From positions 1 through 32,563 of the forward strand of contig CANQJW010000010.1 in assembly GCA_947624345.1 (NCBI GenBank): a stretch of 32,563 nucleotides of DNA, in the 5' to 3' direction. This stretch comes from an uncultured Clostridia bacterium. Lineage in GTDB: Bacteria > Bacillota > Clostridia > Oscillospirales > Ruminococcaceae. The notes beneath the pieces are model-generated. The model was not told the DNA's origin and searched no databases. It was given only the letters and a program-made list of their open reading frames with translations. A program made the position numbers and the translations under genes. Numbering within the stretch: position 1 is the stretch's first letter; each line of letters starts with the position of its first letter. Positions 15,183-32,096 of the stretch are shown here, one piece after another.

Positions 15183-15259
15183 TTTATAGGATTTTAATGC
15201 TAGTGATATATGAAAATATAAAAAATAACATCATATAGAGTTGTAAAGGGTAAAGCAAA

Positions 15260-15604
15260 TATGTTATAATAACCTCAAGCAACAGTGTTTCACACTGTTA
15301 TTGTGCTGTCGCACATTTTCGGCTTTCGCCGAAAGGCTTGAGAACATTGTAACAACAATTTAAGGCTTACGCCTTTTGCTTTGCTAACGCAAAGCAGTGA
15401 AGCTGTCGCTTCACTGAAATTATGTTATAATAACCTCAAGCAACAGTGTTTCACACTGTTATTGTGCTGTCGCACATTTTCGGCTTTCGCCGAAAGGCTT
15501 GAGAACATTGTAACAACAATTTAAGGCTTACGCCTTTTGCTTTGCTAACGCAAAGCAGTGAAGCTGTCGCTTCACTGAAATTATGTTATAATAACCTCAA
15601 GCAA
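15260..15604. repeat. Two identical tandem 161-bp multi-hairpin units plus a partial third (23-bp direct repeat)
   Basis: Copies at 15261-15421 and 15422-15582 are identical by eye; TATGTTATAATAACCTCAAGCAA occurs at 15260, 15421 and 15582. About seven inverted repeats per unit. Confidence 0.97.
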
Positions 15605-15633: not shown

Positions 15634-17919
15634 ATGAAAACATCAAGCGAGCTTTGGTATGATAAATGGGCTGAGGACTGGAACGAAGCGCTTCCGGTCG
15701 GCAGTGGAAGAATCGGCGGAATGGTATATGGAAATCCGTATTATGACAAAATTTCGCTCAACGAGGATTCAATATGGTCGGGCGGATACAGAAAGAGAAA
15801 CAATATGTCTGCACTTGAAAATCTGCAAAAGGTAAGAGAGCTTTTGTTTGAGGAGAGAATTTCCGAGGCGGAAGAGATAGTGTATGACGCATTTTGTGGA
15901 ACCCCTGTAAATCAGCGGCACTATATGCCGTTGGGTGATTTTATCATTGACCAGAGAGGCTTGGGGGATATAGAAAATTTCAGAAGAAGCCTAGACCTTG
16001 AAACGGCAGTGCAGACTACACAGTTTTCATCAAACGGAGTAAACTTCACTCGGGAGGTTATCGCATCATATCCTGATAATGTTCTTGTCATTAACATTAA
16101 GGCTGATAAAAAGGAAAGCATAAGTATACGTTTACATATCGACGGCAGAGACGACTATTTCGACGATAACTCGCCTGTATCGAACGATGAAATTCTTTTT
16201 TACGGCGGAATGGGCGGAGAAGACGGAATTAACTTTGCGTCATATATTAAAATCATTCCGACTTTGGGAACAACAAAGCACTTAGGAAGCTTTATAAAGG
16301 CTGAGGGCTGTGATGAAGTAACTATTTTAATATCCTGCCGGACAAGCTATCGTTTTGAGGATTATAAAAAAGAGGCAAAAGATGATATTGAAAGGGCTTC
16401 AAAGCTGTCGTTTGAAGAGATAAAAGAACGCCATATCAAGGACTATAAGAAGTATTACGACAGGGTTAAATTACAGCTTGAGGATAACAGCGAGGGAAAG
16501 TCAGAGCTTCCGACAGACGAGCGTCTGGCTAATATTCAAAACGGCGGAAAGGATAATAAGCTTATTGAGCTTTACTATAATTTCGCACGGTATCTTATGA
16601 TTGCCGGAAGTCGTGAAGGCACGCTGCCTTTGAATCTTCAGGGAATATGGAACAAGGATATGTGGCCTGCCTGGGGCTGTAAGTATACGATAAATATAAA
16701 TACTGAGATGAATTATTGGCCTGTTGAAAGCGCCAATCTTTCTGAGCTGGCAACTCCGCTCTTTGACCTTATAGAGAAAATGCGTCCTAACGGAAGGGTT
16801 ACGGCAAAAGAGATGTATAACTGTGGGGGCTTTGTTTGTCATCATAACACTGATCTTTGGGGAGATACTGCTCCGCAGGATTTGTGGATGCCTGCAACAC
16901 AGTGGCCTATGGGTGCGGCATGGCTTTGTCTGCATATCTGGGAGCATTATATGTTCACTAGGGATAAAGATTTCTTGAAGGAAAAGTACGACACAATCAA
17001 AGAGGCCAGTGAGTTCTTTGTGGATTTTCTTATTGAAAATAAAAACGGTCAGCTTGTAACCTGTCCGTCTGTTTCGCCTGAGAACACATACCTGACAGAA
17101 TCGGGCGGAAAGGGTTCGCTTTGTATAGGGCCGTCGATGGATAGCCAGATAATATATGAGCTGTTTACAGCGGTTATAAAGGCGAGCGAGATTTTAGGCA
17201 TTGATGCAGATTATGCTGAAAAGCTAAAATCAATGCGTGAGAAGCTCCCCTCACCTGAGATTGGAAAGTACGGTCAGATAAAAGAATGGGCTATTGATTA
17301 TGATGAGGTTGAGCCGGGACACAGACATATCTCACAGCTGTTTGCTTTATATCCGGCTGATATGATATCAACCAGAAGAACACCAAAGCTTGCAGATGCT
17401 GCAATAGCAACGCTTGAAAGGAGACTTTCTCACGGAGGAGGTCATACAGGCTGGAGCCGTGCGTGGATAATCAATCTTTGGGCAAGGCTTAATGATGGAG
17501 AGAAGGTTTATGAGAATATAGCGGCACTTTTATCTCATTCAACGAATAAGAATATGTTTGACAATCATCCGCCGTTTCAGATTGACGGAAATTTCGGAGG
17601 TGCAGCAGGAATATCAGAGGCTTTATTACAGAGCATAAATGATGAGCTGATTTTGCTTCCGGCCCTTCCTCGGGAGTGGGGAAGCGGTAAGTTTGAAAAC
17701 CTTAAAGCAAGAGGAGGATTTACTGTATCCTGCAAGTGGAAAAATTCAAAGCTTAAAGAGGCTCTAATTGTTTCAAACAGCGGTGAAACCTGTAGTCTTG
17801 TTGTGAACGTTCCTGTTAAGGTTTTCTGCGACGGTGAGGAGATTAGCTGTGTGGAAAAGAACGGAGCCGTTGTATTTGATACTTGCGTTGGAAAATCCTA
17901 TGAGGTAAAAACTTCATAG
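15634..17919 (+). CDS. Glycoside hydrolase family 95-like protein (alpha-L-fucosidase or related)
   Basis: 761 aa; WNEALPVGSGRIGGMVYGNPYYDKISLNEDSIWSGG N-terminus, LQGIWNKDMWPAWGCKYTININTEMNYWPVESANLSE, FQIDGNFGGAAGISEALLQS. No signal peptide. Confidence 0.9.
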   Translation: MKTSSELWYDKWAEDWNEALPVGSGRIGGMVYGNPYYDKISLNEDSIWSGGYRKRNNMSALENLQKVRELLFEERISEAEEIVYDAFCGTPVNQRHYMPLGDFIIDQRGLGDIENFRRSLDLETAVQTTQFSSNGVNFTREVIASYPDNVLVINIKADKKESISIRLHIDGRDDYFDDNSPVSNDEILFYGGMGGEDGINFASYIKIIPTLGTTKHLGSFIKAEGCDEVTILISCRTSYRFEDYKKEAKDDIERASKLSFEEIKERHIKDYKKYYDRVKLQLEDNSEGKSELPTDERLANIQNGGKDNKLIELYYNFARYLMIAGSREGTLPLNLQGIWNKDMWPAWGCKYTININTEMNYWPVESANLSELATPLFDLIEKMRPNGRVTAKEMYNCGGFVCHHNTDLWGDTAPQDLWMPATQWPMGAAWLCLHIWEHYMFTRDKDFLKEKYDTIKEASEFFVDFLIENKNGQLVTCPSVSPENTYLTESGGKGSLCIGPSMDSQIIYELFTAVIKASEILGIDADYAEKLKSMREKLPSPEIGKYGQIKEWAIDYDEVEPGHRHISQLFALYPADMISTRRTPKLADAAIATLERRLSHGGGHTGWSRAWIINLWARLNDGEKVYENIAALLSHSTNKNMFDNHPPFQIDGNFGGAAGISEALLQSINDELILLPALPREWGSGKFENLKARGGFTVSCKWKNSKLKEALIVSNSGETCSLVVNVPVKVFCDGEEISCVEKNGAVVFDTCVGKSYEVKTS

Positions 17920-30342: not shown

Positions 30343-31800
30343 TTATTTGATGAAAGGTAAAAACCTTAAAACCTTTTTCGGTAATACGATTTTTGCAACC
30401 TTAAACATACATCTGTAATTGAGTAAAAATACTATTATAAACAATATAATCAAAGATGTGTATTTGATATATGTTTGTCTGATATAATTAGCAAGCGTCA
30501 TAAGTATTAATAATATGCAGTTTGTGACAAGCTTCTTAATACCAAGGTCAAATCTCTGATATTTTTGAGTGTCAACTGCTCTTATTATAAATACGGTAAG
30601 ATATGACGCCAGTGTGGAAATTGCTGCTGCATATAGTCCTATTACAGGAAGAAGAGTTATATTGATAAGTATATTTATCACGCCTGCGATAAGGCTTGTC
30701 ACAAGCGAACGCACAGATTTTTGTGCCACTGAATAAATCGTTCCGAAGAATGTTACATAACAGGTGAATATCGTTGCAAATATCAGTATCGGAGCATAGT
30801 TGATAGACTCTCTGAAAGCAGGACCTATCCAGAAGTTTGTTACAGGGGTAACTAATAGAAGTATGAACGCTGATACTATATATAATACCGATTGGTTAGA
30901 GTCGAAAACATTTTTATAAAAGTGTTCCTGATCCGCTGAATCCTTTTCGGTTATCGCCGACATATTCCACGCCATTCCGAAAATCATATATACCGTTGAT
31001 ACAATGTTAGGAATTTTATATGATGCCGAGAGTATTCCGTTTTTATCCTGACCTAAGAAATAGGTTGCAAGAAAAGAGTTTGAAGAGTTTGTGATAAGCC
31101 ATAAAAGCTGCGCAGGAATAAGCGGAACACAATATTTCAGCATTTGCTTTGCAAGGGAAAAATCAAGATTTCTGAATTTAATATATTGCCATAGCCTTGC
31201 GACAAATATAAGAAAGATTATAGATAAAAGATCAGATATTATAATCGCAAGCAGGTATCCTGTAACTCCGATTTTAAATACAAGCAAAAACAGTATTGTC
31301 AATATAAGCGTGCTGAATGTGGTGAATATACTGCAAAAGGCGTAAAGCTTAATCATTTCAAGAGCTCTTACAAAGTATGAATATAAAAGCTTCAGGCTTG
31401 ACGTCGCAACATAAATATATAACAAAACAGAATAGTTATCTATAAATCTATGGATCAGACTTGTTCCGCTGACAAACGGAATAACTATTCCGAGAAGGAC
31501 TAAGCCGCCGATATTTGCAATATTGCCTATGGTGAAAACGCTCGCATTGTCATAATTCTTGTCAAGGCCATATCTTGTTATAGCCTCTGAAACTGCAAGC
31601 GACACGATAGGTACAAGCCAGTTTGCCATTTGGATAATAACATCGGTTATGCCGAATTCGGCATCTGTCAAAGCATATGTGTAAATCGGCACTAATAGAA
31701 GCACCAGAATCTTTGAGCTGAATTGACCTATGGCAAATATTATAGTGTTTGAAAAGAGCTTTTTATAACTGCTCTTTTTTTCTCGAATTTCCTCAGACAT
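30343..31800 (-). CDS. Polysaccharide/oligosaccharide flippase (Wzx/MATE-like)
   Basis: 485 aa, about 12-14 TM segments; SNTIIFAIGQFSSKILVLLLVPIYTYALTDAEFGITDVI N-terminus typical of Wzx-type flippases. Confidence 0.88.
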   Translation of the reverse strand: MSEEIREKKSSYKKLFSNTIIFAIGQFSSKILVLLLVPIYTYALTDAEFGITDVIIQMANWLVPIVSLAVSEAITRYGLDKNYDNASVFTIGNIANIGGLVLLGIVIPFVSGTSLIHRFIDNYSVLLYIYVATSSLKLLYSYFVRALEMIKLYAFCSIFTTFSTLILTILFLLVFKIGVTGYLLAIIISDLLSIIFLIFVARLWQYIKFRNLDFSLAKQMLKYCVPLIPAQLLWLITNSSNSFLATYFLGQDKNGILSASYKIPNIVSTVYMIFGMAWNMSAITEKDSADQEHFYKNVFDSNQSVLYIVSAFILLLVTPVTNFWIGPAFRESINYAPILIFATIFTCYVTFFGTIYSVAQKSVRSLVTSLIAGVINILINITLLPVIGLYAAAISTLASYLTVFIIRAVDTQKYQRFDLGIKKLVTNCILLILMTLANYIRQTYIKYTSLIILFIIVFLLNYRCMFKVAKIVLPKKVLRFLPFIK

Positions 31801-32045: not shown

Positions 32046-32096
32046 ATGTACAACGCAAATCACCCAGTATTTGTAAACGGGGGGGGGGGGCATTAA
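32046..32096 (+). CDS. Short ORF (16 codons) containing a G12 tract
   Basis: AAGGAGG ribosome-binding site, ATG at 32046, MYNANHPVFVNGGGGH then TAA; G12 at 32079-32090. Confidence 0.4.
   Translation: MYNANHPVFVNGGGGH

Follow-up and report, generated by a model that had tools for sequence, protein, structure and literature searches.

The closest known kinds of element to the cassettes described here are the Correia elements (CREE) of Neisseria and the BOX elements of Streptococcus pneumoniae. REP/BIME and PATE elements, which are moved by Y1 transposases, have imperfect hairpins, act through a folded single strand, and leave no target duplication. Integron attC sites are recognized by the shape of the folded strand, with sequence left free, and their cassettes lie in tandem. 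Correia elements are about 100–157 bp long and their first six bases can serve as the −10 of a sigma-70 promoter whose −35 is native (PMC2649163). They possess terminal inverted repeats and TA insertion sites, and one strain has 15 potential promoters of the native −35 kind (PMC2649163). BOX elements are modular, tandemly extendable, hairpin-forming intergenic repeats for which a mobilizer is not evident (PMC10969869, together with general knowledge).

The cassettes resemble Correia elements in being small, gene-less, apparently mobile and intergenic, with hairpins that would lie in the transcript, and they too can make up a promoter with a native −35. They differ in having two cloverleaves with freely varying hairpins, in nearly always using an existing −10 box as their site, and in lacking terminal inverted repeats: the left end reads AACCTCA and the right end ATGGTATAAT, with no inverted match between them. 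Assignment to the classical MITE class was rejected on this inverted-repeat test. Like CREE and MITEs, the cassettes are short, gene-less, dispersed, multi-copy repeats absent from orthologous sites. The likeness to BOX elements is one of modular build rather than sequence, and, unlike BOX, the cassette units consist of two cloverleaf modules in alternation and are linked to the −10 box. Imperfect hairpins and a proposed action through a folded single strand recall REP/BIME and PATE elements; in contrast to these, the cassettes have no associated Y1 gene that could be found, target a promoter box, and form four-way junctions rather than single hairpins. The tandem order and the proposed shape recognition with free sequence are reminiscent of integron attC sites, but the cassettes lack attC core sites, carry no gene, and are dispersed at promoters rather than gathered in one array. 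To our knowledge, no mobile repeat that homes to a core promoter while sparing the host gene has been described. The literature searched contained no earlier description of the cassette family, which is not proof of absence, and the family is apparently a small non-autonomous mobile repeat so far undescribed in that literature.

The window, meaning the whole stretch of DNA analyzed, comprises 32,563 nucleotides from an uncultured Clostridia bacterium of the Ruminococcaceae. Positions 15260–15604 form a perfect tandem array of two identical 161-bp units followed by 23 further bases. Tandem Repeats Finder reports this interval with a period of 161, 2.1 copies and a 100% match, and calls no second tandem array in the window. 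The array and its surroundings contain the following features, all on the plus strand:

15241..15246, plus strand: TTGTAA, a native −35-like hexamer belonging to the GH95 promoter, which lies in unique flank and is separated from the first −10 by 18 nt; TTGTAA also precedes the single −10 of element-free sister species
15265..15270, plus strand: box B1, the −10 hexamer of the host (TATAAT), at the array's left edge
15271–15273 and 15343–15345, plus strand: AAC linkers of unit 1 cloverleaf 1
15274..15342, plus strand: unit 1 cloverleaf 1, closed by the stem CTCAAGC/GCTTGAG around hairpins 15281–15299, 15302–15315 and 15317–15334
15346..15431, plus strand: unit 1 cloverleaf 2, box B2 (ATTGTAACAACAATTT) paired with AAATTATGTTATAAT, enclosing hairpins 15362–15375, 15377–15396 and 15395–15416
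15426..15431, plus strand: TATAAT common to the right end of unit 1 and the left end of unit 2, extended −10 TGTTATAAT
15435..15503, plus strand: unit 2 cloverleaf 1, identical to the unit 1 copy
15507..15592, plus strand: unit 2 cloverleaf 2, with box B3 at its end
15587..15592, plus strand: box B3, a TG-extended TATAAT with the GH95 start codon 41 nt downstream; presumably the restored promoter
15593..15604, plus strand: AACCTCAAGCAA, truncated start of a third unit, like remnants at the right end of other arrays
15634..17919, plus strand: GH95 gene downstream of the array (Pfam PF14498/PF22124)

A preliminary description of this DNA had recognized the two identical units, the partial third and the position upstream of a GH95 gene, all of which hold. 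Every stem that it named is present, although its unit coordinates were low by one (CTCAAGC lies at 15–21 and GCTTGAG at 77–83). The 23-bp direct repeats that it placed at the flanks are likewise real, the biologically meaningful repeat being the promoter box TATGTTATAAT plus the conserved unit start AACCTCA. Its second module, closed by AATTT/AAATT, exists but is larger than it had proposed, with the whole of box B2 taking part in the pairing. It offered no firm interpretation and missed the key feature, namely that the array lies exactly on a promoter −10 box. Elsewhere in the window, the intergenic positions 32079–32090 are 12 consecutive G on the plus strand (C on the minus strand), which may represent a phase-variable contingency tract or a limit of the sequencing.

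The general formula of a unit is TATAAT-AAC-[stem + 3 hairpins]-AAC-[stem + 3 hairpins]-TATAAT, and neighboring units of tandem arrays have one TATAAT in common. In the family consensus, cloverleaf 1 consists of CTCAnnn, three hairpins and nnnTGAG, and cloverleaf 2 of ATTGTAnCAT, three hairpins and ATGnTATAAT. The 184-nt unit of the window folds at −69.7 kcal/mol; dinucleotide shuffles give −38.4 ± 3.9 (z = −8.1), and none of the 200 folds as well. The right end of an array is often a truncated further unit, comprising 12–40 nt of cloverleaf 1 and followed by the native leader, as in L104, L107, L124, L151 and window positions 15593–15604; such truncated units may result from deletion in the last unit or from abortive insertion.

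The preliminary description had left open that the unit occurs only at this locus, which is not the case. A BLAST search with the unit recovers additional copies elsewhere in the same genome, at 97–99% identity or partial (contigs C54, C17, C12, C41 and C32, one copy being diverged), and weaker matches in four sister species. The pattern of two inner boxes alone (TATAATAACCTCA ... TGAGAACATTGTA) detects the family in 6 of 15 genomes from the genus. Across 85,462 species genomes, a looser pattern returned 71 stretches with 90 copies, 3 of which are chance matches in coding DNA. The roughly 87 copies in other Clostridia MAGs have the boxes in common, part of this conservation being fixed by the search pattern itself, and their hairpin sequences are almost entirely different. 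Almost every carrier is a Clostridia MAG; the sources include rabbit, deer, goat, buffalo, chicken and termite. An even sample of the order yielded 18 copies in 7 of 396 genomes, from three families, with 0 matches to a reversed control pattern; the distribution of the family is therefore patchy. Because the search pattern is exact, all these counts are lower bounds. Plasmid collections contained no cassette copies, and two patterns run against viral contigs gave chance coding matches only. A phage- or plasmid-borne element was rejected, as neither collection held genuine copies. Many cassettes lie at contig ends of their carrier MAGs (e.g., G061:C43:10, G062:C22:129 and G064:C24:62), and true copy numbers are probably higher than those counted. 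The family spans several Clostridia genera from gut habitats, and many transcripts, unrelated to one another, have their start region changed by it.

Arrays start at a promoter −10 box, and the native −35 usually lies 17 nt upstream, in unique flank. The −35 match peaks at a spacer of 17 only, with a mean of 3.29 of 6 and at least 5 matches in 17 of 65 first units, and this signal is absent upstream of inner array units. TG precedes TATAAT at 78% of insertion sites; for the remaining TATAAT sites of that DNA the figure is about 12%. The downstream ORF is codirectional in 59 of 70 arrays, usually starting 30–75 nt after the last TATAAT. By Pfam, the downstream genes are unrelated and include GH95, a sugar kinase, a flippase, an EPSP synthase family member, PcrA, PhoH, YajC, TetR and an M23 peptidase, among others. 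A regulon under the cassettes was ruled out by this diversity of Pfam families.

At three loci (GH95, flippase and PhoH), element-free orthologous promoters have one −10 box, and carriers have the cassette between two TATAATs; these comparisons are between species, not strains, and the transposition event itself is not seen. The GH95 promoter is empty in eight close sister species (G004, G006, G012, G008, G014, G009, G011 and G002), with one TTGTAA-N17/18-TATAAT. It is filled in this genome (G000) and in G003 by two cassettes each, of different sequence, at exactly the −10 site. The flippase promoter holds one cassette in G004 and two of another sequence in G003, and is empty with a single TATAAT in G012, G006, G008, G014, G002, G011 and G009. 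It is also empty in the window, where the flippase orthologue occupies 30343–31800 and its promoter (31843 region) has TATACT as −10. From the last TATAAT to the flippase start codon there are 33 nt in G004 and 32 nt in G012, so the cassette is the sole addition. Mapped onto the tree of the two proteins, occupancy of the flippase promoter is explained more simply by two insertions at the −10 than by a single one followed by four or more precise losses. The third locus, the PhoH promoter, was compared in another genus of the family: G228 has the insertion, and the eleven relatives examined lack it. Insertion of cassettes at the −10 box is well supported by these sequence comparisons. TATAAT flanks both sides in 18 of 27 single units, where it may be either a 6-bp target duplication or a part of the element. 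In L107 and L098, which represent the same promoter in two species, a new unit type stands ahead of a truncated older type, an order that fits entry of new cassettes at the promoter-proximal TATAAT.

The tandem array is thus likely to represent a family of small, non-autonomous mobile DNA cassettes that target the promoter −10 box and leave an extended −10 promoter behind. The mobile unit would be AAC-cloverleaf 1-AAC-cloverleaf 2-TATAAT, about 161 bp, inserting in one orientation exactly at an existing −10 hexamer (TATAAT, usually TGnTATAAT) to give TATAAT on both sides. It may move as a folded single strand or cruciform, recognized mainly by shape and by the boxes TATAATAACCTCA, TGAGAACATTG and TGnTATAAT, with a recombinase presumably supplied in trans. 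Judging from its sequence and its distance to the gene, the TGnTATAAT at the right end would restore an extended −10 promoter and make insertion tolerable to the host. The terminal TATAAT may itself be a target or recombination site that gives rise to tandem arrays, and either insertion into it or unequal exchange would fit tandem growth. Transcripts from the native promoter would have hairpins in their 5′ leader. No mobilizing enzyme was found for the family, and unpaired end motifs of 10 carrier genomes, screened for a version that bears a gene, proved to be only decayed or truncated cassettes and chance coding matches. A more specific proposal, offered tentatively and with more doubt than confidence, is that the cassettes are promoter-homing mobile elements of a novel type, for which a dedicated recombinase reads paired DNA four-way junctions by shape, leaving hairpin sequence almost free, and inserts them into −10 boxes, perhaps when melted by RNA polymerase, while supplying a new −10 that keeps the host gene on. 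If the shape of the double four-way junction is recognized, the family would offer a new example, beside integron attC, of folded-DNA-guided recombination. The idea is directly testable through the rule that insertion falls exactly on the −10 box.

Single-sequence folds recover the 3 + 3 hairpin architecture in 32 of 38 non-redundant copies, whereas shuffled cloverleaf 1 interiors form three branches in 33 of 380 cases (9%). Single-sequence folds were used because the variable hairpins are misaligned in a plain MAFFT alignment, on which RNAalifold returns the cloverleaf 1 stem only. Hairpin sequences are highly diverse (191 different among 216). In the closing stems, 95.7% of cells are paired, against a control value of 87.4 ± 0.8, and the covariation score is 0.245, against 0.084 ± 0.011, with slid controls at or below 0.059. 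Both closing stems covary above both controls, partly through changes on both sides. Box B2 matches the right-hand box B3 rather than the host's left-hand box: L085 and L114 have TGCTATAAT as left box and TGATATAAT or TGGTATAAT as right box, and certain subfamilies show a joint change of B2 and B3, which there read TTCTGCG/CGCAGAA or TTCCGCG/CGCGGAA. Selection for an RNA structure is expected to favor G.U over A.C on the transcribed strand. G.U pairs in the hairpins are rare and not commoner on either strand (41 on plus, 53 on minus), and because they show no transcribed-strand preference, the hairpin pairing looks DNA-level, as in a folded single strand or cruciform, rather than RNA-level. 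The B2-B3 stem is an exception, with two conserved G.U pairs that favor the plus strand and a fixed G.T opposite the invariant TATAAT, which may force these pairs. The preliminary description had suggested an RNA or mobile repeat family, for which dispersed copies with covarying stems would speak; both were found, and it is the mobile alternative that the empty sites support, with the RNA alternative not favored.

A cis-regulatory leader RNA (riboswitch, attenuator or 5′ stabilizer) would start at or just after TATAAT-AAC, with cloverleaf 1 as the mRNA 5′ end controlling expression or stability. The native −35/−10 does place the start site at the first cloverleaf, the arrays are codirectional with the downstream gene and fold strongly, and the same promoter is occupied in two species twice. 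This reading is nevertheless improbable, given the rare and strand-equal G.U pairs, the lack of a conserved unpaired core beyond the DNA boxes, the lack of a function common to the downstream genes, the empty site in most sister species, and the lack of an Rfam match at gathering or relaxed thresholds. The twice-occupied promoters also bear on a different scenario, in which homologous recombination (gene conversion) has homogenized old insertions at a few promoters within each species and has also spread them, transposition today being slight or absent. The near identity of units within one locus and the GH95 site common to G000 and G003 are consistent with it, as is the exchange of modules between subfamilies: cloverleaf types recombine, with cloverleaf 1 alike in G004 and G003 and cloverleaf 2 alike in G000 and G004. 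The occupied GH95 promoters of G000 and G003 and those of L098 and L107 could indeed be old insertions whose sequence was replaced by recombination. As a general account, gene conversion is unlikely, since ancestral occupancy of the flippase promoter would need at least four precise losses and near-identical copies occur within one genome at unrelated promoters without flanking homology.

Within the mobile-cassette reading, a Y1 HUH transposase (IS200/IS605 or RAYT-type) might mobilize the cassette in the manner of REP/BIME or PATE elements. The hairpin ends, the absence of terminal inverted repeats and the fixed target on one side are all compatible with this, and Y1 genes are present in 7 of the 10 element-rich genomes, as well as in 5 of the 6 carriers within the genus. 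However, three element-rich genomes and this genome (all MAGs, some incomplete, this genome included) gave no match, inspection of Y1 genes showed ordinary IS200-like copies whose ends differ, and Y1 is also present in element-free genomes, which together leave Y1 involvement rather doubtful. The complementarity of B2 to both TATAAT boxes would suit a detailed version, equally doubtful, in which the folded single strand uses B2 as a guide-like box paired with the cleavage site TATAAT and inserts 3′ of the target. One Y1 gene near a cassette in G061 belongs to a separate IS200-like copy beyond the target gene. The 100% identity of the units and the many copies at contig ends might also raise the prospect of a short-read MAG assembly artefact. 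This is scarcely credible, as arrays in other genomes have non-identical units (five in L084, three in L136) and empty sites join cleanly; the assembly doubt touches only the copy number of two in this array.

Several copies depart from the standard architecture. In a termite MAG, cassettes L243–L246 represent a minimal variant of 98 bp: cloverleaf 1 has a single hairpin, cloverleaf 2 contains different material, and TATAATAACCTCA and GAGAACATTG are retained as boxes, so three hairpins are not obligatory. L122:1-400 is a tandem of cloverleaf 1 only, with a 91-bp period, in which cloverleaf 2 has been lost and box B2 is joined directly to the next AAC. On the reverse strand of L127:5840-6200, a chimeric cassette resembles a fusion of two subfamilies, with GCGGAATAATAACCTTAAGG interrupting cloverleaf 1.
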